Below are positions 9,191-19,599 of a stretch of 64,000 nt of DNA, piece after piece. The notes below the pieces were generated by a model that had not been told where the DNA came from, searched no databases, and worked only from the letters and a program-made list of their open reading frames with translations. The DNA is taken from NCBI RefSeq assembly GCF_008370495.1, contig NZ_VTUX01000007.1:186001-250000 (forward strand). The letters are read 5' to 3'. Within the stretch, counting starts at the first letter, position 1. Each line of letters begins with the position of its first letter. The translations under genes were made by a program, and so were the position numbers. Source of the stretch: Pseudohalioglobus sediminis. Lineage in GTDB: Bacteria; Pseudomonadota; Gammaproteobacteria; Pseudomonadales; Halieaceae.

Positions 9191-10756
9191 CTAGCCCAGT
9201 GCATCCTCGGCGACGAAGTACTTGGGATCCTCAATCACGTTGACCTCCACCAGGTTACCGGCCTTGCGCAGCAACTGCTTGCACTCTGCCGAGAGGTGGA
9301 CAAGGTGCAGGGTCTTGCCGGCATTGAGGTAGCGTTCCGCCAGCGTGTCGATCGCCTCCAGACCGGAGTGGTCACAAACCCGCGACTCGGCGAAATCGAT
9401 CACCACGTCGTCATTGGCCGCGGCCGGGTCAAACTGTTCCAGGAAGGAGGTGACAGAGCCAAAGAACAGCGGGCCGCTGACCGCGTAGACAGTCGAGCCC
9501 TTGTGGTCTTCCATCGCCTTCACCTGTACCTGCTTGGCGTGTTCCCAGGCGAACACCAGCGCCGACACAATCACCCCCACGACCACGGCCATCGCCAGGT
9601 CTGTGGCAACCGTCACCGCCGACACCAGCACCAGCACCATCGCGTCAGACTTGGGCACCTTGCGCAGTACCCGGAAGCTGGACCACTCGAAGGTGCCAAT
9701 CACCACTATAAACATCACCCCGATCAGTGCCGCCAGCGGGATCTGTTCGATCAGCGGCGAAGCCACCAGGATAAATGCCAGCAGGAACAGGGCCGCTGAA
9801 ATACCGGACAGGCGACCACGCCCGCCCGAGTTCACGTTGATCATGCTCTGCCCGATCATGGCACAACCGCCCATGCCGCCGAAGAAACCCGTCGCCACAT
9901 TGGCGACGCCCTGGCCAACGCACTCCTTGTTACCGCGACCGCGGGTCTCGGTAATCTCATCCACCAGGCGCAGGGTCAGCAGCGATTCGATCAAGCCAAT
10001 CGCGGCGAGGACTACCGCGTAAGGGAAGATGATAACCAGCGTTTCCCAGTTCAACGGTACCGAGGGGATATGGAACTGTGGCAGTCCACCCTTGATGGAA
10101 GCGACATCGCCCACCACCTTGGTATCCAGGCTCATGCCCACCACCAGCAGGCTTACCACCACAATGGCGGCCAGTGACGACGGGATGGCCGTGGTCAGGC
10201 GCGGCAGGAAGTGGATGATTGCCATGGTCAGCAGCACCAGGCCGCAAAGCATGTACAGCTGCTGGCCCTCAAGCCAGGCAACGTCAATAATCGAGCCTTC
10301 CATGAAGGTACCGGCCAGCCAGCCGGGCTCGCCGGGGGTGCCAAACTGGCCCAGCTGGGCGAGGAAGATGACGATTGCCAGGCCGTTGACGAAGCCCAGC
10401 ATTACCGGGTGCGGCACCATGCGGATAAACTTGCCCAGGCGCATGGCGCCGGCGGCGATCTGCAATATGCCCATCAATACCACGGTGGCAAACAGGTATT
10501 CCACGCCGTGGTCCGCAACCAGCGCCACCATCACCACCGCCAGGGCGCCGGTAGCACCGGAAATCATGCCCGGACGGCCGCCAATGCAGGCGGTGATAAG
10601 GCCCACCATAAAGGCCGCATACAGGCCCACCAGCGGTTCTACCCCGGCGACAAAGGCAAAGGCTACCGCCTCAGGCACCAGGGCCAGTGCCACGGTGAGG
10701 CCTGAGAGCACGTCATTTTTAACGGTCGCGACTTTACTCGGGTGAATCTCGAACAT
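9191..10756 (-). CDS. SulP-family anion transporter with STAS domain
   Basis: 521-residue inner-membrane carrier of the SLC26/SulP family, which moves sulfate, bicarbonate or dicarboxylates. N-terminal signature [20 protein letters not shown], then about 12 hydrophobic segments to residue 400, with the family motif [20 protein letters not shown] in the middle. The C-terminal cytoplasmic STAS domain holds [20 protein letters not shown], the usual D-S(H)SG region. Several marine relatives are Na+-dependent bicarbonate importers (BicA type); that is possible here but not shown by sequence. Stands alone, with a 334-bp upstream gap. Confidence 0.9.
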
Positions 10757-11090
10757 CGGGTTCTATACCTAAAACTGTCATGCGCGGACCTTGCGGTACG
10801 CGGCAAAGAAGAAAACCAATCAGCGGAGGAGTTGTTATGCGCGGATGGGGAAGGCGGCGAATTCTAGGCTATCCGGCGCAGCTCCACCAGCCCGGCCAGC
10901 GTGAAAAATAACAACCGGGACCAAAGATTCGCTGGGCCGGGTTCACTGGTGAATGACCAATTCACTACAACTATCGCACAGTAATATCCGCATATTGCGA
11001 CAGCGATGGTGGTACAGTGCTGCAGCAGTTTCTACCCCGGATTGAACGCCGGGTTGACTCGCCCCCTCTGCCCTCACACGCTGGAAATCC
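10757..11090. other. intergenic region between SulP transporter and Nudix genes
   Basis: 334 bp serving as the divergent control region. It contains one 24-codon reading frame (10837-10911, plus strand) with a strong GGAGGAG ribosome-binding site; its arginine-rich product is not recognised and may be spurious. No hairpin or operator was evident otherwise. Confidence 0.4.
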
Positions 11091-11525
11091 ATGAACACTG
11101 TGTCTTTAAAAGACTATAAAACCGCCCGCTGCATCCTGCATACCGAAGACAAGTTCCTGCTGGCAATTCACCATCACACCAAAGCCAAGTCCAAAGGCAA
11201 ATGGGGGCTGCCGGGCGGTCATACTGAATCCGGGGAGCATCTTGAAGATACGGTCAGACGCGAGCTGACAGAAGAGCTGAAAATTCATGTCGGCGACCTG
11301 CACAATATAGGTGACTACCCGCACAACAACCGCTGGCATCGCATTTACGGCGCCGAATACCATGGCCAGATTCTGTCATTCGATCGTAAGGAACTGCAGC
11401 AGATCGCCTGGTATTCCCGGGATCAGGTTTTCAATCTGCATGCCTGCCAACAGTTACATGCTGGCTGGGAGTACGCGGCAATTTGCGAGTTCCAGGACAT
11501 ATTGAATCCCGCAAAACCAAGTTAA
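11091..11525 (+). CDS. Nudix hydrolase
   Basis: 144 residues with the Nudix box at about 41-63: GHTESGEHLEDTVRRELTEE, matching G-x5-E-x7-RE-L-x-EE; the usual following Gly is replaced (ELKI). The enzyme would cleave a nucleoside diphosphate linked to another group using Mg2+. Substrate cannot be told; the N-terminus (TARCILHTEDKFLLAIHHHT) is like NTP/sugar-nucleotide pyrophosphohydrolases. Starts at ATG 11091. Confidence 0.88.
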   Translation: MNTVSLKDYKTARCILHTEDKFLLAIHHHTKAKSKGKWGLPGGHTESGEHLEDTVRRELTEELKIHVGDLHNIGDYPHNNRWHRIYGAEYHGQILSFDRKELQQIAWYSRDQVFNLHACQQLHAGWEYAAICEFQDILNPAKPS

Positions 11526-11696
11526 ACCGCCAGCCAATAGAGAGTTGTCTGCAGGTGGTTTGCAAATTTGCATTGGGATACGCGCGCCACCCCCGCCAAA
11601 CAGCTTTACGACAACGACACGACAATTGTGCAGTTTCCGGCCGGTAAATACCGTACCCTGAGTTGATAAACCGATATCGAGCATATGAGGCTGGGC

Positions 11697-11852
11697 ATGG
11701 CCAGAACCAATTATTCATTTGAAAAGCGGCAGAGAGAACTCGCCAAGAAAAAGAAAAAGGAAGAGAAACGCGAGCAGAAGGAAGCGGCACGTCGCAGCAA
11801 GCTGGACAGTGTCGAGCCGCCCCCTGCAAGCGATGACCTGCCTGTCAACTGA
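11697..11852 (+). CDS. small highly charged protein (51 aa), conserved-looking
   Basis: Reading frame MARTNYSFEKRQRELAKKKK followed by KEEKREQKEAARRSKLDSVE and an acidic, proline-containing tail. GAGG at 11686-11689 gives a ribosome-binding site. Very short, lysine/glutamate-rich helical proteins starting with M-A-R-T-N-Y-S-F-E-K-R are, as I recall, widespread in gammaproteobacteria without known function. The composition suggests a long helix able to bind nucleic acid or ribosomes, which is inference only. Confidence 0.7.
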   Translation: MARTNYSFEKRQRELAKKKKKEEKREQKEAARRSKLDSVEPPPASDDLPVN

Positions 11853-12189
11853 TCCCCCGGCTCCCATCCGACTGACTGGCGCGACACGCGATAAAGGGTT
11901 GGATGACGCCTGCCATACGCCGGCGCGAGTACCCGTTTGTTCACTGCGGCAAGATTCCAGCGTGAACGCTGTTCCCGAAAGTCACCGCTTTAGTGAGCAC
12001 TTTCCTGTACACTGGTGCCCTGACAGAGTTTCCACCACTACCTTCCTCCACTCAGCCTCATCCTCCGTCAGCAACTGACCGTTGTCAGGATTCCAGCCCC
12101 AAGGCTGTACAGACGGATAACGACACAACACGCCACCTGAAAAACGCGTTTTTTCACCATGCTCGAATGTCGGGCAGGGAGAGCACCAC
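11853..12189. other. intergenic, nothing recognised
   Basis: 337 bp between the small charged protein and the repeat protein. Short open frames occur on both strands but none has a convincing start, composition or family pattern. No terminator-like hairpin with a T tract seen. Confidence 0.4.
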
Positions 12190-12879
12190 ATGACGACTGT
12201 TCAACCATCACTTCCGATACCGGCAAGCATTACCTTGCTTCTACTGTTATTACTTTTTCTCCCGGCTGCGACTGTTGCAGAAGACGCAGCCGTCACTGTG
12301 CCGAATCACGCAACAGCCAAAAACTACGGCAAGGGATGGGAGTGCAACCAGGGTTTTCGCGAGGCCGGCGACGGCTGCGATCCGATTGTAATACCGGAAA
12401 ACGCTTATCCGACCAACGCCATTTACGGCAATGGCTGGAAATGCGAAAGAGGGTACCTGGAGAGCGGGGGCGAGTGCCTTGCCATCAAGGTGCCTGCCAA
12501 TGGATACCTGGCGGACAGGTCCTTCAAGCCGGGCTGGAAATGCGAGCGCGGATACCGGGCGACCAACAGCACCTGCACCGCGATCAAGGTGCCAGAGCAT
12601 GGTTACCTGACCAATAGCGATTACGGGTCTGGCTGGAAGTGTGAACGCGGCTATCGACCCATCAGCGGAGAATGCATCGCCATTGAGGTGCCGGAGCATG
12701 GGTACCTGATCGATGCCCCCTATGGGACTGGCTGGAAGTGCGAACGCGGCTATCAAAAACATGAACAAGCCTGTCGTCCCGTGCAGGTTCCGAAAAATGC
12801 CTTTCTCAACGCCTCGGGAGACGGCTGGGATTGTGCCCGCAACTACACCCGGTCCCGCGACACCTGTGTATTCCGATAA
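12190..12879 (+). CDS. secreted cysteine-rich tandem-repeat protein
   Basis: 229 residues. Signal peptide: ITLLLLLLLFLPAATVAEDA. The mature chain is six repeats of about 31-33 residues, each of the form VP-x-N/H-GYL...GWKCERGY...C-x-I-K/E; residues 36-66, 67-99, 100-132, 133-165, 166-198 and 199-229. Each repeat has exactly two Cys, so intra-repeat disulfides in the periplasm or outside the cell are likely. I do not recognise a named family or function. Repeats 3-5 are closest to each other, pointing to recent internal duplication. Stands alone and is followed by a REP-like hairpin. Confidence 0.8.
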   Translation: MTTVQPSLPIPASITLLLLLLLFLPAATVAEDAAVTVPNHATAKNYGKGWECNQGFREAGDGCDPIVIPENAYPTNAIYGNGWKCERGYLESGGECLAIKVPANGYLADRSFKPGWKCERGYRATNSTCTAIKVPEHGYLTNSDYGSGWKCERGYRPISGECIAIEVPEHGYLIDAPYGTGWKCERGYQKHEQACRPVQVPKNAFLNASGDGWDCARNYTRSRDTCVFR

Positions 12880-12970
12880 TCGCTAAACCGATGGTCATGA
12901 GCCGTGACCTGCAAGCAGCCCGGGGCGGAGGTTTGGCGGCGGACCGGGGTTTGGTCGTGGCCCAGGCCAG

Positions 12971-12997
12971 ATCGCGGCTGTGGCCGCTCCCGGGGCC
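12971..12997 (+). repeat. REP-like hairpin, family A
   Basis: ATCGCGGCTGTGGCCGCTCC: GCGGC-tgtg-GCCGC stem-loop followed by TCC. Same element as at 18951, 21077 and 21185, and inverted at 9131. Confidence 0.55.
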
Positions 12998-13024
12998 ATT
13001 GAAGGCAGTGAAATCCCGACAGGA

Positions 13025-14041
13025 CTATTCGGGCTGGCGCTGCAAGGTAGCCGATGGTAACTCGCCAAAAGCCACTCTGTAGTCGGCGGCGAGCTGGCCC
13101 AAGTGACGGAATCCGTGGAGCCGGCCAAGCTCTGCAACCCCGATGAGACTGGCATCACTGTGCAATAGCGCCCGGTTCAGCCTGTGCAATTTCAGCGCCT
13201 TGATGTAAGTCGCCGGGCTGACACCCAGCACGTCCCGGAACGCATTCTCCAGGGTTCTTCTCGAGGCACCGGCAACCGATGCAAGTTGTGCCACGCTCAT
13301 GGAGCTGCCCTGCGCCGCCGTAATTTCGCGCACGGCCCTGTCGAGAACCAACCAGCGCTTGCCACGGGGAACCACCGGCTCGCGAACCTGGCTGGCTTGC
13401 AGGCATGCCAGCACCAGGTACGCCATTTCCCGCTCCACCAGCGCAGCGAACGGCGGATACGATGCTCGCTGTGTTGCCACCTGGCCCGGTGCGTATTGCG
13501 CCAGCAGCTGCCGCAACCGCAACAGTGGCGCTCCGCCATTGGCGCAGAAACCGCGCTCATCCGGCATCAATCTATGTAGCGGCTGATCAAAATGACGCTC
13601 CGCCACATCACTCAGCAGCGCTATTGGCAGGGTTAAGTGCAGGGTGTCGAGGCCCGCGCTGGAAACGGACTCGAAATCGCCGGCCAATGGCATGACCAGC
13701 AGGCTGTGTGGCGTTACCGACTCGCCACACCAACGCCATGATTGCGGCCCGACCCCGGTCGCCAGCAGCGAAACCGTGCGGTAGCCTGGCGCAACCGCAC
13801 CGCGCTGGTAAAAACGGGCTGGCAGCACAGCGCGGCTGATCACCACCGACGATCCGGCAACCTGCTCAAGAAAAAATGGCGCAGTGGCCCGACTGAACTG
13901 GCAGAAGTCGAGTTCCCAGCCCACAGCCTGGGCCGCCAGCTCTTCAAAGAGGCGGAATTCGGCTCTGATCAAACAGCCGTTTGTCGCTGACTCACCCAAG
14001 CTGAAAACCTTTTTTGCGCAATATTGATATCTGCACCGCAT
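13025..14041 (-). CDS. AraC-family transcriptional regulator
   Basis: 338 residues. The C-terminal AraC DNA-binding domain is clear: SVAQLASVAGASRRTLENAF then RDVLGVSPATYIKALKLHRL, with a second helix-turn-helix from VAELGRLHGFRHLGQLAADY. The N-terminal 230 residues are a sensor domain that I cannot assign. Transcribed away from the sulfatase gene, so it is the natural candidate to control it. Its first 94 codons and upstream region are duplicated at 16449-16790, in front of the DUF3299/MBL genes. Confidence 0.88.
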   Translation of the reverse strand: MRCRYQYCAKKVFSLGESATNGCLIRAEFRLFEELAAQAVGWELDFCQFSRATAPFFLEQVAGSSVVISRAVLPARFYQRGAVAPGYRTVSLLATGVGPQSWRWCGESVTPHSLLVMPLAGDFESVSSAGLDTLHLTLPIALLSDVAERHFDQPLHRLMPDERGFCANGGAPLLRLRQLLAQYAPGQVATQRASYPPFAALVEREMAYLVLACLQASQVREPVVPRGKRWLVLDRAVREITAAQGSSMSVAQLASVAGASRRTLENAFRDVLGVSPATYIKALKLHRLNRALLHSDASLIGVAELGRLHGFRHLGQLAADYRVAFGELPSATLQRQPE

Positions 14042-14102
14042 TATAGCCCAGCGCGGTGGCCGAGTGAGGCGAGATCACCTAGGCTTGCGGGGAATCAAAC
14101 AG
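13761..14102. repeat. 342-bp direct repeat, copy 1 (AraC 5' end plus promoter region)
   Basis: Covers the start of the AraC gene (minus strand) and about 60 bp of upstream DNA. Read against 16449-16790 at a constant offset of 2,688 bp, I find only about four mismatches and no gaps. The two copies flank the sulfatase gene. Confidence 0.95.
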
Positions 14103-14137
14103 TATTTATGACTCAGCTTTTGATGTTGGTGGCCTTG

Positions 14138-14160
14138 GCCGGTTCTATCAAACCGGTTTT
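14138..14160 (+). promoter_or_regulatory. hairpin in the sulfatase leader
   Basis: GCCGGTT-ctatc-AAACCGG with TTTT after it. It lies 120 bp before the sulfatase start and could act as an attenuator or weak terminator. Seen only as sequence symmetry. Confidence 0.3.
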
Positions 14161-14280
14161 GGGTGTTTGTGTCCGATACTGGAAATTTCGGGAAATTTAC
14201 TTGGCAGCATCTGGTGCGTATTTGAGCAAAGTGGGTTACCACCAGAGCGCCAGCCAGTAATTCCTAAAGGAGATTATAAG

Positions 14281-15990
14281 GTGAAGATAAGATCATTTTT
14301 AACGACGGTAGCCTCAGTGGCCCTGGCTGCCGGTTCATTGGTGTCTAACGCCAAGGACATTGTTCACGACGCCGAGCACTATGTGCTGCTGGCACAGTAC
14401 AAGGACAAGTGGGCGGCGCAGGATAAAACGCTGGACCAGAAGCTTGTCGAGCTGGAAAAGAAGCACGGTAAGCGACCGAATATCATTCACATTATGTGGG
14501 ACGATACCCCGGTCGGCGAGATAGGAATTCCGGCCATCCAAAAAGTACGTGGCTGGGAAACGCCCAACATGAACCAGTTGGCCGCCGACGGCATAAATTT
14601 TATGCGCATGTACACTGAGCCCTCATGTACACCGAGTCGGGCGGCGGTGATGACCGGCCGTCACGCCAAACGCAACGGCATGTATAACGTGGGTTTTCCC
14701 TATGAATATGGCGGACTGGCTGCCGAGGAAGTAACCATTGCAGAGGTGCTGAGCGAAGCAGGCTATGCCACGGCCTTTTATGGCAAGTCTCATTTGGGAG
14801 ATGTGGAGTCCAGCTACCTGAATAATCAGGGCTTTGATGAAGCGTTGTGGACCCCCTACAACCAGGTACCCAGCTTGTATGTACCCCGCGCGCAGATCGG
14901 CGCCTTGTCAGCGGCCGTCATGTTTCCTGAAATGTTTGGTGAAGACCCCTATGACATCGATAACGGCTGGAGGCCCGATGGTTATGTCTGGGCTTTGGAA
15001 GGCAAGAAGGGAGGCCCGGTTCGCGAAGTGGGTACACCACCTAACCACGATGATTACGTGGCTTTGGAGGACGAGTTCTGGAAGCGCGCGTCGGAGTTTG
15101 TGCGCAAGAACGCAAAAAGTGACAAGCCTTTCTTTGTCGCACTGTGGCCCCAGTTAACCTCCTTCATGGGGTTTCCCGACCGCGTGACAGCCGGCGGTGG
15201 TTTGTTGCAGGAAGCGCTGGCCCGCATGGATGTCAGGGTCGGCAAGTTGATCAAGGAACTGGAAGCACTCGAGATTGACGACAACACCCTTGTCATTCTG
15301 ATGGCTGACAATGGCCCCATGACGCATAATGGCCCACCGGGAATGGTGGAAACGCTATACACCGGTGGCAAGGGCGACTACACAGAGGGTGGAGTGCGCG
15401 TCCCCGCTATTGCTTACTGGCCGGGGGTTATCGAACCTGGTCAGATCATAGGCGATATCATTCACGAGACCGACCTGTTCACTACCTTCGCTACCCTGGG
15501 CGGCGCTACCAAGCATATCCCGCGAGACCGTATTATCGATGGTGTAAACCAGACGGCGCTGCTCCTGGAAGGCGATACGCAGAGCCGCCGGGACTATGTG
15601 CATATCTACACGGGTCCTGTATTGGCGGCCACCGTAAAAGGGCGTTACAAGAAGCATTGGACCGGTGCAAAGCCGGGTCTGTCCGGTCCTGAGTTTTACG
15701 ACCTCTACAGTGACCCCAGGGAAGCTAGTGGCCAACTGCTGCCCATGTTCCCGGCCAAGAGTATGTTCAATATCATGAAGGTCCGTCACCTGCTAATGAA
15801 AGAGAAGTACCCCGACAAGGGCCAGAACCGCGACTTCCCACTGAAAGGCATCGAGAATGCGCGGCCTGAAACTATTGAAGCTAGCAAAGGCAGGGTTCTC
15901 TCTGGCGATGCGCCTTTCGATCCGAAAGACGTTATCCAGAATTTGCCGGAATGGGACAATGTGGACCGTGGCTGGGGTCTGAGCGAGTAA
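14281..15990 (+). CDS. secreted sulfatase (arylsulfatase family)
   Basis: 569 residues. GTG at 14281 is chosen because AAAGGAG lies 10 bases upstream and a signal peptide follows at once (KIRSFLTTVASVALAAGSLV). Type I sulfatase motif CTPSRAAVMTGR: the Cys would be oxidised to formylglycine by a maturase. Metal-binding HIMWDD near the N-terminus and ILMADNGP in the middle are typical. The product would hydrolyse sulfate esters in the periplasm; substrate unknown. The gene lies between two copies of an AraC-promoter repeat and is closed by a terminator. Confidence 0.93.
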   Translation: MKIRSFLTTVASVALAAGSLVSNAKDIVHDAEHYVLLAQYKDKWAAQDKTLDQKLVELEKKHGKRPNIIHIMWDDTPVGEIGIPAIQKVRGWETPNMNQLAADGINFMRMYTEPSCTPSRAAVMTGRHAKRNGMYNVGFPYEYGGLAAEEVTIAEVLSEAGYATAFYGKSHLGDVESSYLNNQGFDEALWTPYNQVPSLYVPRAQIGALSAAVMFPEMFGEDPYDIDNGWRPDGYVWALEGKKGGPVREVGTPPNHDDYVALEDEFWKRASEFVRKNAKSDKPFFVALWPQLTSFMGFPDRVTAGGGLLQEALARMDVRVGKLIKELEALEIDDNTLVILMADNGPMTHNGPPGMVETLYTGGKGDYTEGGVRVPAIAYWPGVIEPGQIIGDIIHETDLFTTFATLGGATKHIPRDRIIDGVNQTALLLEGDTQSRRDYVHIYTGPVLAATVKGRYKKHWTGAKPGLSGPEFYDLYSDPREASGQLLPMFPAKSMFNIMKVRHLLMKEKYPDKGQNRDFPLKGIENARPETIEASKGRVLSGDAPFDPKDVIQNLPEWDNVDRGWGLSE

Positions 15991-16011
15991 TACCGCATCT
16001 ATGGTCTAAGG

Positions 16012-16038
16012 GCCCTCGCCATGGCGGGGGCTTTTTTT
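16012..16038 (+). terminator. rho-independent terminator after the sulfatase gene
   Basis: Stem GCCCTCG / CGGGGGC (one G-T pair) around CCATGG, then seven T. It starts 21 bp after the sulfatase stop. Confidence 0.8.
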
Positions 16039-16065
16039 GCCTGCACATCGAATAAGTAGATGCGT

Positions 16066-16112
16066 AAAAAAACGGGGACAGACCCCGGTTGGTTAATCGT
16101 GTCCTGCCCCCA
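16066..16112. repeat. REP/BIME-like element
   Basis: AACGGGGACAGACCCCGGTT is a GGGG...CCCC hairpin, followed 20 bp later by a partly inverted GTGTCCTGCCCCC. GGGGACAGACCCC-type repeats are commonly linked to REP-associated tyrosine transposases in gammaproteobacteria (recalled, not checked). No such transposase is seen in this window. Confidence 0.5.
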
Positions 16113-16256
16113 GCTTCCCCTATCGTGATCTGAGCGTGAGTGCGTTTGGAGAATGGAGTAGAGCAGTGGTTTGAACCTGAGCGGCAGATTCGCTTGGTCT
16201 GAATAAATTCATTTGTCAGTACCCACTGGCGATGTGAGCGTTGACGAGCGTGACGC

Positions 16257-16448
16257 TCATTCTTTTAGATGTTGCTCAAGGAAGCTTAACAATTCACGGT
16301 AAAGCTCGTTATTGGCTGACTCTAGACAATAACCGTGGCCTCCGCGCTCGTAGTATTGGCTGTGCACATCGACTCCGGATTGCTCGAGGGCGGCTTCCAG
16401 TGCCCGGGCGTGCTCAATCGGGGCGCGCTGATCATTCCGGAACCAGAG
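16257..16448 (-). pseudogene. C-terminal remnant of an S9-family (prolyl oligopeptidase-like) peptidase
   Basis: The minus strand reads RNDQRAPIEHARALEAALEQ, then SGVDVHSQYYERGGHGY, and ends SFLEQHLKE at a TGA (16257-16259). This is the pattern of the last 60 residues of S9 peptidases: D-x-x-V/A-P-x-x-x-A, then E-G/G-G-H-G with the catalytic His. Everything upstream is missing; the frame stops abruptly where the AraC repeat begins at 16449. It is a truncated gene end brought in or cut by the recombination that made the repeat. Confidence 0.7.
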
Positions 16449-16729
16449 GCCAGCAGCGAAACCGTGCGGTAGCCTGGCGCAACCGCACCGCGCTGGTAAA
16501 AACGGGCTGGCAGCACAGCGCGGCTGATCACCACCGACGATCCGGCAACCTGCTCAAGAAAAAATGGCGCAGTGGCCCGACTGAACTGGCAGAAGTCGAG
16601 TTCCCAGCCCACAGCCTGGGCCGCCAGCTCTTCAAAGAGGCGGAATTCGGCTCTGATCAAACAGCCGTTCGTCGCTGACTCACCCAAGCTGAAAACCTTT
16701 TTTGCGCAATATTGATATCTGCACCGCAT
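16449..16729 (-). pseudogene. truncated AraC regulator (N-terminal 94 codons only)
   Basis: Identical or nearly so to the first 94 residues of the AraC protein at 13025-14041, starting at ATG 16729. After residue 94 the frame runs into the S9 remnant in a different phase and ends at 16322. It has no DNA-binding domain, so it cannot be a working regulator; what it preserves is the promoter region for the next genes. Confidence 0.9.
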
Positions 16730-16790
16730 TATAGCCCAGCGCGGTGGCCGCGTGAGGCGAGATCACCTAGGCTTGCGGGGAGTCAAGCAG
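16449..16790. repeat. 342-bp direct repeat, copy 2
   Basis: Near-identical to 13761-14102. It carries codons 1 to 94 of the AraC gene plus its promoter side, and ends 11 bp before the DUF3299 gene start. Confidence 0.95.
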
Positions 16791-16800
16791 GTCGTTAGTC

Positions 16801-17313
16801 ATGATTCAGCATCCGACGCCATTTCTTACACTCCTGATCGTAGTGTTGGTCGGCAACTTTTACGGTCATACAGCCGCAGCAGCCGACAACCTCCCGGAAG
16901 CACAGTATCGCGTGCTGGCCTGGGAAGAGCTGGTGCCAGAGGACTGGGAGCCACCGGTCATACCCAGGGCCCATAACGAGGCCCGGGCAACCCCGGTCGA
17001 TCCAGCAGCTGCGGTGGCCTCACTTGATCAACAACTGGTGGCCCTGCCGGGATTTATGAAACCGGTGGTCTTTGCAGAGAACCAGGTCTCTGAATTTATT
17101 CTGGTGCCACTGCTGCCGCATCACACCCAGCATCACGCTCACCTGGACGTCAACCAGATGGTCTACGTGAAGCTGCTGGAGCCTCTGCGTGTAGAAAACC
17201 CGATGACCCCGTTGTGGGTAATCGGCACCATGACGGTGCAATCGGTCTTCACTGACGAGGGGCCCGTCGCTTACCGCATAGCCGACGGCGTCACCACCGA
17301 GTACGAGTATTAA
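16801..17313 (+). CDS. DUF3299-type secreted protein
   Basis: 170 residues with an N-terminal signal sequence (FLTLLIVVLVGNFYGHTAAA). YRVLAWEELVPEDWEPP near the start and the later GFMKPVVF...ISEFILVPLLPHH-type stretch (here QVSEFILVPLLPHHTQHH) fit the DUF3299 pattern of small periplasmic or lipoprotein-like proteins of unknown function. ATG at 16801 lies 11 bp after the AraC-promoter repeat, so it is the first gene driven from that repeat. The MBL gene follows 30 bp later, probably in one operon. Confidence 0.75.
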   Translation: MIQHPTPFLTLLIVVLVGNFYGHTAAAADNLPEAQYRVLAWEELVPEDWEPPVIPRAHNEARATPVDPAAAVASLDQQLVALPGFMKPVVFAENQVSEFILVPLLPHHTQHHAHLDVNQMVYVKLLEPLRVENPMTPLWVIGTMTVQSVFTDEGPVAYRIADGVTTEYEY

Positions 17314-17343
17314 GCTCACACCTTGATAGACAGGAGAATCAAA

Positions 17344-18789
17344 GTGAAAACAACACTAAAAGCCACCCTGGCATCCATGCTCTTGGCCGGCTCGATGCAG
17401 GTTGCTGCCGAACCGCCCGCGGTACAGGAGCCATCCTCGCCGGAAGCCATCCAGAAGGCCCTCAGCGGCGGCGTGCCCATGGGTCGCTGGAAAGAGGGCC
17501 TGCTGTTTGAGGGCATCAGCCCGCACCCCTGGCTGACCAGCGCAGCAAACTGGTTCCCCGGCACCGAGGAAGTCCAGCCGCACGAGATGCGCATTACTTT
17601 CATGGGAACTTCGCCCACTATTCGTCCTGGACAGATGAACACCTCAATTTTTGTTGAGCTAGGCAACGGCGATAACTTTATTTTCGACATTGGCGAAGGG
17701 TCTGTTGCCAACTACACCGCCGCGCGCGTCGCCCTTAACCAGATGAATAACATCTTCATCACCCACCTGCACGTGGATCACTATGGCTCCCTGCCCTATG
17801 TGTGGATGTTCGGCACCTGGTCCGGCGGCTGGCACAAGCCCATTACCGTACACGGCCCCTCCGGGCGTACCCCCGAGTTCGGCACCAGGGCCATGGTTGA
17901 AGGCATGAGACAGATGACCGCCTGGCACCGTGACGCCTTCAGCGTGTTCCCCGTCGGCAAAGGCTGGGATATCCAGGTGAAGGAGTTCGATTTCGCCGAC
18001 AACGGCGGCACTGTCTATGAGCAGAACGGCGTCAAGGTTATTCACTGGCAGCGCTCCCATGCCAAGGACGGGGCCTCTGCCTATCGCCTCGACTGGCAGA
18101 TCAACGACGAGGAATCCCTTTGCTTCGTCTGGACCGGTGACGGCCGCCCCAGTGAGCTGGACATCAAGTACGCCAAGGGCTGCGATGTTTACGTTACCGA
18201 GCTGCAGCAGGAAGTAGTGGAAATCAACTCCGGCGTGCAGGGCGTGCCACCGTTCCTGGCCCGCTACACCATCGATACCCACCACACTCCGGGCTATGCC
18301 GTTGGTTATCTTGCCGACAAGATCAAGCCGCGTATGCTGATGACCACGCACATGACCTTTGACCCCTGGCTCAACGAGGAGACGGTAGCTGAGGTACGCC
18401 ATCACTGGGACGGCCCCTACCACTTCGGCGCCCCGGACGGCATCGTGGTGAACGTCACCACCGACCAGATCTGGGTACGCGAGGGCATCCTGCCGGACTT
18501 CCCCAACCAGCGCGCGCCGCAGCAGGATTTCACCAACGGCCAGTTGATTGTGCCGATGCCGCCCACAGATCGCAGCAAGATCCAGAATGCCTGGGTGCGC
18601 GAACAGCAGATCGATCCCGACAAGTACTACCCGAAAGGCTACAAGCCCGAGTTGCTTGAGGAGTGGCCGGCTGAGACCGATATCGTGGCACCTGTAGAGG
18701 CCCTGCCGGAAAACCTGCGCAAGAGCATGGGTGGACACTGGGAATTCACCCAGAAAAACCGCAAGGCGCTGGAAGAAATGAACAAGTAG
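17344..18789 (+). CDS. secreted metallo-beta-lactamase fold hydrolase, GntH-like
   Basis: 481 residues. GTG at 17344 follows CAGGAG by 8 bases and opens a signal peptide (KTTLKATLASMLLAGSMQVA). MBL fold: MRITFMGTSPTIRPGQMNTS, metal motif THLHVDHYG, then VWTGDGRPSE and THMTFD as further ligands. Length and these motifs resemble a periplasmic MBL group that databases, as I recall, name after GntH of guanitoxin synthesis; that name is unlikely to describe the role here. Substrate unknown. Closed by a strong terminator. Confidence 0.85.
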   Translation: MKTTLKATLASMLLAGSMQVAAEPPAVQEPSSPEAIQKALSGGVPMGRWKEGLLFEGISPHPWLTSAANWFPGTEEVQPHEMRITFMGTSPTIRPGQMNTSIFVELGNGDNFIFDIGEGSVANYTAARVALNQMNNIFITHLHVDHYGSLPYVWMFGTWSGGWHKPITVHGPSGRTPEFGTRAMVEGMRQMTAWHRDAFSVFPVGKGWDIQVKEFDFADNGGTVYEQNGVKVIHWQRSHAKDGASAYRLDWQINDEESLCFVWTGDGRPSELDIKYAKGCDVYVTELQQEVVEINSGVQGVPPFLARYTIDTHHTPGYAVGYLADKIKPRMLMTTHMTFDPWLNEETVAEVRHHWDGPYHFGAPDGIVVNVTTDQIWVREGILPDFPNQRAPQQDFTNGQLIVPMPPTDRSKIQNAWVREQQIDPDKYYPKGYKPELLEEWPAETDIVAPVEALPENLRKSMGGHWEFTQKNRKALEEMNK

Positions 18790-18808
18790 TTTTTTTCAGA
18801 GCTGACAG

Positions 18809-18830
18809 AGGGCCCTGCGGGGCCCTTTTT
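18809..18830 (+). terminator. rho-independent terminator after the MBL gene
   Basis: Perfect stem AGGGCCC-tgcg-GGGCCCT followed by a T tract, 19 bp after the stop. Confidence 0.85.
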
Positions 18831-18949
18831 CACGCCTGCCCTTCGCGCCCCTGATCCAGGCAGGCAGCATCGCTGAAACCTGGCGCGACCATAGAACGGT
18901 CGATACTGGGTAAGATTCTCTGACCCGCGACCTGGACCAGCTCGCGGCT

Positions 18950-18976
18950 GTGGCCGCGCCTGCGGTGTATCCGTCT
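18950..18976 (+). repeat. REP-like hairpin, family A
   Basis: GCTCGCGGCTGTGGCCGCGC: same GCGGC-tgtg-GCCGC hairpin as at 12971 and 21077, 60 bp before the NnrU-like gene. Confidence 0.6.
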
Positions 18977-19035
18977 GGTGACAGGTGGGTTTAGGGACTA
19001 GACTGTTTGGGAACCCACGGCGAGAGACGACAAAC

Positions 19036-19599
19036 ATGGCTCTACTTATTGCAGGTGTACTGTTGTGGTCAATCGTCCACCTCGTCCCCGCCATCGCCCA
19101 GGCGCTCAGGCAGTCACTGCTCGGCAAGCTGGGAGAGAATGGCTACAAGGGCCTGTTTTCCCTGCTGCTGATCGCCGCCATCCTGATGATGGTGTTCGGC
19201 TGGCGCAGTATCGACCAACCCACCTACCTGTACACGCTGCCGCTGTGGACCCGCCACCTCGGTATGCTGCTGGTACTGGTGGCCTTCATCCTGTTCGTGG
19301 CATCGGGCATGGCCACGCGCATCAAGCAGGTCCTGCGCCATCCGCAGCTGACCGGGGTGCTGATCTGGGCGGGAGCCCACCTGATGATGAACGGTGACAG
19401 TCGCTCGCTGGTGTTATTTGGCGGCATGGGTATCTGGGCCCTGCTGGAGATCGTACTGATCAACCGCCGCGATGGCGCGTGGGTGAAACCGGAAGTACCC
19501 GGTATGGCGCAGGAAGCAAAGCTGCTCGCCATCAGCCTGGTGGTATTCGTGGCGGTGGTTTTCGCGCACCCGTGGCTGGCTGGCGTCGCGATTCGTTGA
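19036..19599 (+). CDS. NnrU-family membrane protein
   Basis: 187 residues, six hydrophobic segments. ATG at 19036 begins LLIAGVLLWSIVHLVPAIAQ, the H-x-x-P motif of NnrU, which was first found near nitric-oxide reductase genes; a related protein is involved in 15-cis-zeta-carotene isomerase. RSLVLFGGMGIWALLEI is the second conserved block. No denitrification genes are near, so a role in NO metabolism is not supported here. It converges on the M48 protease gene with no bases between stops. Confidence 0.82.
   Translation: MALLIAGVLLWSIVHLVPAIAQALRQSLLGKLGENGYKGLFSLLLIAAILMMVFGWRSIDQPTYLYTLPLWTRHLGMLLVLVAFILFVASGMATRIKQVLRHPQLTGVLIWAGAHLMMNGDSRSLVLFGGMGIWALLEIVLINRRDGAWVKPEVPGMAQEAKLLAISLVVFVAVVFAHPWLAGVAIR

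Follow-up and report, generated by a model that had tools for sequence, protein, structure and literature searches.

Organisation of the locus

We analysed a stretch of 64,000 nucleotides (nt) from the genome of the marine bacterium Pseudohalioglobus sediminis (contig NZ_VTUX01000007.1, positions 186,001 to 250,000), hereafter the window, in which a gene for an AraC-family regulator is read divergently from a sulfatase gene, while a near-identical copy of the beginning of that AraC gene, together with its control region, stands in front of a DUF3299–MBL gene pair (Table 1). The direct repeat spans 13761–14102 and 16449–16790, 342 nt each, with exactly four mismatches and an offset of 2,688 bp, in agreement with the initial annotation, which had read about four mismatches by eye. 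Its orientation of the copies also stood: copy 1 lies between AraC on the minus strand and the sulfatase on the plus strand, with the GTG start of the latter 178 nt past the repeat, and copy 2 stops 10 nt ahead of the DUF3299 start, with the MBL gene next. That both copies hold the AraC 5′ end plus control DNA was correct as to content, but the AraC piece in copy 2 is a broken stub and the homology extends to about 16438 and 16810. The stub keeps about 101 codons from the equivalent of ATG 14041, then runs out of frame (open reading frame 16322–16729, minus strand), and is joined directly to the truncated end of an S9 peptidase gene. Nothing convincing was recovered as an AraC C-terminal remnant in 10761–13020, 15991–16440 or 18790–18990 (best E 0.87), and no third copy of the repeat occurs in the 23 contigs (4.43 Mb) of the genome at E ≤ 0.001.

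Table 1. Features of the AraC–sulfatase–DUF3299–MBL locus, in window coordinates.
Feature	Position	Strand	Evidence or remark
Accessory segment in the gap between SulP (9191–10756) and NnrU (18985–19599)	10923–18974		Lacking from five of the six genus genomes compared
AraC-family regulator	13025–14041	−	Pfam HTH_18, E 8e-16; start not certain, with TTG ~13999 favoured over ATG 14041
Repeat copy 1: AraC 5′ part and divergent control region, facing sulfatase	13761–14102		4/342 mismatches to copy 2
Putative AraC operator TTTTTGCGCAATATTGATAT, copy 1	14011–14030	+	Two copies only in own genome, up to 3 mismatches
ATGACTCAGC in the sulfatase leader, possibly left over from a DUF3299-like start	14108–14117	+	Aligns with the copy 2 DUF3299 start and with P. 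lutimaris
S1-type sulfatase; CTPSR motif; signal-peptide-like start (by eye)	14281–15990 (GTG start)	+	Pfam Sulfatase, E 8e-37
Palindromic GGGGACAGACC repeat	16066–16119		Long P. lutimaris homology ends inside
3′ remnant of an IS6-family insertion sequence (IS), 104 bp	16121–16224	+	Last 17 transposase codons and element end
S9 (prolyl oligopeptidase family) peptidase, truncated, last ~58 codons	16257–16437	−	Pfam Peptidase_S9, E 5e-7
Repeat copy 2, full homology limits: AraC stub and control region, facing DUF3299	16438–16810		99% core 16449–16790
Putative AraC operator, copy 2	16699–16718	+	
DUF3299 protein, signal-peptide-like start (by eye)	16801–17313	+	Pfam DUF3299, E 2e-15; 60% amino acid identity to G002
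MBL-fold hydrolase (GntH / PNGM-1 / RNase Z-like)	17344–18789	+	NCBIfam NF041257, 529 bits (cutoff 333)

Relatives of the locus

Among the eight genomes of the genus, only the window holds both partners, the sulfatase and the DUF3299–MBL pair, at one locus. The SulP–NnrU site was compared in six of the seven other genomes, the most fragmented (G004) being set aside. In five of them (G001, G003, G005, G006 and G007) SulP and NnrU are adjacent, about 200–250 nt apart. In the sixth, G002, the order at the same site is SulP, AraC, DUF3299, MBL and NnrU, with no sulfatase in between; this is the kind of relative, with AraC directly next to DUF3299–MBL, that the initial annotation had anticipated. 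P. lutimaris HF004 (G005) carries the complementary state, with AraC and a divergent sulfatase on contig C1, its SulP–NnrU junction on C77, no DUF3299 match and no DUF3299–MBL pair. The genes around the P. lutimaris module have no DNA-level match in the genome of the window.

The phyletic patterns of the individual genes are similarly narrow. Across 140 genomes of the family, the window's own included, AraC proteins of at least 50% identity are found only in the window, P. lutimaris (85% amino acid identity) and G002 (50%), and a scan of the AraC alignment against the genome contigs gave a single locus, in P. lutimaris. DUF3299 above 50% identity is confined to the window and G002, and we did not see the same arrangement with a low-identity repeat anywhere in this set. 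In the genus, the sulfatase is 98% identical at the amino acid level to that of P. lutimaris; the next matches, at 42–44%, are in G002 and in the window's own genome outside the window, the others being of lower identity or shorter. Conversely, MBL is 86% identical to that of G002 and at most 31% identical to proteins in the rest of the genus (30% in P. lutimaris).

We also viewed the gene neighbourhoods of the top nine AraC loci, the stub excluded (the window, P. lutimaris, G002 and six loci from more distant genomes, L029–L034). A sulfatase alone accompanies AraC at four (P. lutimaris, G013, G052, G015) and an MBL-type gene alone at three (G002, with DUF3299; G029 and G045, at 28–33% identity); one, on a 2.1-kb stretch of G054, has neither, and the window alone has both. 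On a separate G054 contig a sulfatase directly follows the end of an AraC gene, both being read in the same direction. AraC regulators of this group seem to have one of two kinds of partner, a sulfatase or an MBL-fold hydrolase, a hint that the two enzymes act on one class of substrate.

A putative operator before both operons

The same conserved operator-like sequence stands before both operons, as looked for in a shared regulon. We found TTTTTGCGCAAWATTGATAT, with one base left free, without mismatch at four places in three of the eight genus genomes: repeat copy 1, repeat copy 2, the AraC–sulfatase gap of P. lutimaris and the AraC–DUF3299 gap of G002. Allowing up to three mismatches adds three operator-like sites (in G003, G005 and G006), none of them in the window genome. 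Since P. lutimaris has one T fewer, so that its AraC frame is shifted above the TTG, the sequence is not conserved as protein. It recurs in the AraC–sulfatase gaps of distant relatives: a 16/20 match is the best within 16–17 kb in G052 and G015, whose AraC proteins are about 30% identical, a 14/20 match in G013 is tied with two other sites of its stretch, and a 14/20 match on contig C105 of G054 is the sole such site in 14 kb. A G077 sulfatase without a neighbouring AraC has no operator in front, and none lies near the DUF3299 of G044. The 20-bp TTTTTGCGCAATATTGATAT is thus likely to be the AraC operator, and a single AraC regulator probably controls both the sulfatase and the DUF3299–MBL operons. 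The initial annotation's view that one regulator's control region precedes two operons is borne out, a copy of that region lying before each of them.

The spacing of this sequence to the genes it precedes is informative. It lies 102 nt from the DUF3299 start in copy 2 and 106 nt in G002, and 270–275 nt from the sulfatase start in the window and P. lutimaris; the distance to the ATG of the relic ATGACTCAGC in the sulfatase leader is 97 nt in the window and 102 nt in P. lutimaris. This DUF3299-like spacing and the relic are the strongest indication that the sulfatase came to stand behind a promoter of the DUF3299 type.

Divergence of the repeat copies and of the flanking genes

The two copies differ at 13982 (T in copy 1, C in copy 2), 14063 (A, C), 14094 (A, G) and 14099 (A, G), and their longest common exact run is 221 nt, far above chance. 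Of these four sites, 13982 and 14094 have the P. lutimaris base in copy 1, and 14063 and 14099 have it in copy 2; with the sites split in this way, neither copy is a simple parent of the other. When the homologous segment is defined by P. lutimaris, copy 2 extends from about 16438 to about 16810, while copy 1 has diverged in those margins. Of the 368 aligned positions in this full segment, which also has a 5-nt gap, 13 are mismatched, distributed as 2/333 in the core against 11/35 in the margins (about 11 nt on the left and 20 nt on the right). The core limits were picked with the alignment in view, and there is little sequence in the left margin, so a permutation gives a fairer measure; in 200,000 random placements no clean stretch as long as this arose. 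In the left 11 nt, copy 2 is identical to P. lutimaris at all 11 positions (by eye) and differs from copy 1 at 6. The contrast between a 99% core and margins of far lower identity favours recombination or gene conversion inside older homology over plain recent copying. Hence, of the two options in the initial annotation, that the high identity is recent or is kept by gene conversion, it is the second, widened to recombination, that agrees with the margins.

Long homology to P. lutimaris begins at 13012, a little beyond the AraC stop, and ends at 16111, inside the palindromic repeat. Within it the synonymous divergence (dS) from P. lutimaris is 0.25 (0.19–0.30) for the sulfatase and 0.50 (0.39–0.62) for AraC, compared with 0.57–1.35 for seven flanking genes. 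Identical fourfold sites number 215/270 in the sulfatase, 116/159 in AraC and 662/1,113 in the background, both genes differing from the latter (P = 3e-10 and P = 0.001, respectively).

Between the sulfatase and copy 2 lies debris of several origins. The ends of the IS6 remnant recur in relatives behind full-length-looking transposases, one of which scores 208 bits against NCBIfam transpos_IS6 (cutoff 125), and homologues of the S9 peptidase in relatives are open frames of 557–756 amino acids, with one of 339. The succession of palindrome, IS6 end and S9 tail fused to the AraC stub points to more than one rearrangement. No intact IS6 element bounds the segment, only the 104-bp end remnant, and no second IS6 end was detected in the window with that remnant as query. 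An IS6-driven deletion was considered as the direct cause and rejected, the IS itself being cut internally. Several genomes of the family (L016, L058, L062) have IS6-family elements whose ends are conserved, some at several places, and a second GGGGACAGACC copy lies 3.7 kb off in P. lutimaris (L023, 8988–9042).

Origin of the arrangement

We consider it reasonably probable, from these sequence comparisons, that homologous insertion brought a sulfatase module into an older AraC–DUF3299–MBL locus, leaving two operator copies under one regulator. The initial annotation's reading as a segmental insertion or duplication is retained as an insertion and refined to the entry of a sulfatase module, of the AraC–sulfatase kind found alone in P. 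lutimaris, into an existing locus. As G002 and P. lutimaris hold one partner each and the window both, the AraC–DUF3299–MBL arrangement was probably first and the sulfatase later. We infer that AraC would initially have faced DUF3299–MBL over a common divergent control region in the SulP–NnrU gap. A second module, with the same kind of AraC control region and a relic of a DUF3299 start ahead of a sulfatase, would have arisen in related bacteria and moved between them. In an ancestor of the window strain this module may have undergone homologous recombination with the AraC 5′ end and promoter already in place, behaving like a circle or some other duplicated substrate. The product would have the order AraC, promoter, sulfatase, debris, AraC stub, promoter, DUF3299 and MBL, the inserted gene being flanked by direct repeats of the sequence that recombined. 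The surviving AraC would bind the 20-bp operator, identical in each copy, and control both operons. The traces sought for a single crossover were found: direct repeats around the insert, an uninserted locus at the same site in G002 and a donor-like arrangement in P. lutimaris. The pattern of the flanks would fit an exchange, with the left of copy 1 and the right of copy 2 resident and the right of copy 1 and the left of copy 2 donor-like, but the left margin is no more than 11 nt.

Several observations weigh against this history. Beyond the shortness of that left margin, the S9 and IS6 fragments require further deletions, and the fourfold sites of AraC and the sulfatase do not differ significantly (P = 0.12). 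The sulfatase leader (14103–14281) is 88% identical to P. lutimaris, between the AraC and sulfatase values. Between the window and G002, AraC is only 50% identical, against about 85–86% for MBL and 94% for SulP, so that the resident AraC may itself be a replacement. As for the operator, it is missing from the AraC–MBL gaps of G029 and G045 (no match of at least 14/20 in L030, and one inside the AraC gene in L032); a looser 13-base core has exact matches at two further sites in P. lutimaris, one in G003 and one in G001; at one mismatch, the window genome has seven further sites of this core versus one for a reversed control pattern.

An unlikely alternative is a recent duplication in place, in which a single copying of the AraC 5′ end with its promoter, at or before the entry of the sulfatase, produced copies too young to have diverged, and P. 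lutimaris later obtained the AraC–sulfatase part. It takes the fewest steps and accommodates the 99% identity of the copies, but homology continues 11 nt to the left and about 20 nt to the right of the 99% stretch at far lower identity, and the dS values of AraC and the sulfatase to P. lutimaris differ. We give somewhat less credence still to two old control regions, each with its own AraC, whose cores gene conversion keeps alike, one of the two AraC genes having been removed by a deletion that reached into the S9 gene. The core and margin mismatches conform to it, as does the pairing of AraC genes of the group with a sulfatase or an MBL gene; yet the two pairs were not seen next to each other in any relative, and with the genomes compared it is inseparable from the insertion by homology. 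Equally doubtful is that the arrangement is real and the regulation is not common, one operon being read from another promoter with its control-region copy a relic. The unequal distances from operator to start (270 against 102 nt) would suit this, as would the lack of a sigma-70-type site on the plus strand of 13950–17000 in a consensus scan, though such scans miss many promoters (the one match, on the minus strand at 14302–14273, is below the shuffled mean of 1.9); against it, neither copy is damaged at or around the operator, and the gene downstream of each is an open frame. An assembly artefact, conceivable for a draft of 23 contigs with a 221-nt exact run, is very improbable given the four copy differences, flanks on each side with homologues in relatives, a contig of 434,735 bp and a contamination estimate of 0.02.

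If the insertion by homology occurred, one might speculate, with little confidence, that control regions of regulators act as homologous docking sites: an AraC promoter that travels with a sulfatase would recombine with its chromosomal counterpart, a single step that brings the gene under the fitting regulator, and the 342-bp repeats would still permit RecA-dependent loss of a 2,688-bp sulfatase circle. Were this so, loss of the circle would restore the AraC–DUF3299–MBL arrangement. Sequenced genomes of one genus offer all four states, namely the unoccupied site, the older partner by itself, the newer one by itself and the two together; regulon growth by recombination at a control region could thus be tested step by step.

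Other features of the accessory segment

The SulP–NnrU gap is an accessory site in the genus, with contents differing between the window and G002. The window insert of about 8 kb also carries a NUDIX gene and a repeat protein; 12190–12879 encodes repeated Cys/Trp units behind a signal-peptide-like start (by eye), without a Pfam match above the curated cutoff. The sulfatase, with its CTPSR motif, is of the S1 type. Its closest solved structure is the arylsulfatase 7aj0. An Rfam match to istR over the sulfatase 3′ end at a relaxed threshold (E 0.056; 25.7 bits against a gathering value of 45) was judged to be chance.

The MBL protein matches PDB 6j4n with E 1.5e-47 and exceeds the NCBIfam cutoff for GntH (guanitoxin biosynthesis), here a family name and not a function. 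Seven records of a plasmid collection match the MBL part only, at 69–70%, and are uninformative on the repeat. In G044, of another genus, an MBL fragment (L085, 3–961) 95% identical in amino acids to the window MBL abuts a DUF3299 5′ end, joining DUF3299 codon 54 to MBL codon 120, by horizontal transfer and deletion or by an assembly join.

Comparison with known systems

Campbell-type integration by a single crossover leaves direct repeats of the homology. The window resembles it in having an insert between direct repeats of the recombining sequence with flanks that differ on the two sides, and departs from it in that no circle or vector backbone is seen and the second repeat is truncated. In horizontal regulatory transfer, or promoter replacement, recombination places a control region before a gene and can change its regulator. 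Here too a control region would have been put before a gene by recombination, but what is shared is the regulator's own divergent promoter, and the old target retains a second copy. The IS6/IS26 family (PMC7986276), known for pseudo-compound transposons and translocatable units, makes deletions, inversions and proposed circles; an IS6-family end likewise adjoins the window insert, whereas only a 104-bp end remnant is present and the repeats are AraC sequence. A tandem duplication that activates a transferred gene is described in PMC11111574: it is similar in that a duplication alters expression of an acquired gene and differs in being a method that relies on 9-bp microhomology borders and tandem duplication to high copy number. 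Set beside these systems, the window locus is a well-documented case of a known type of event.

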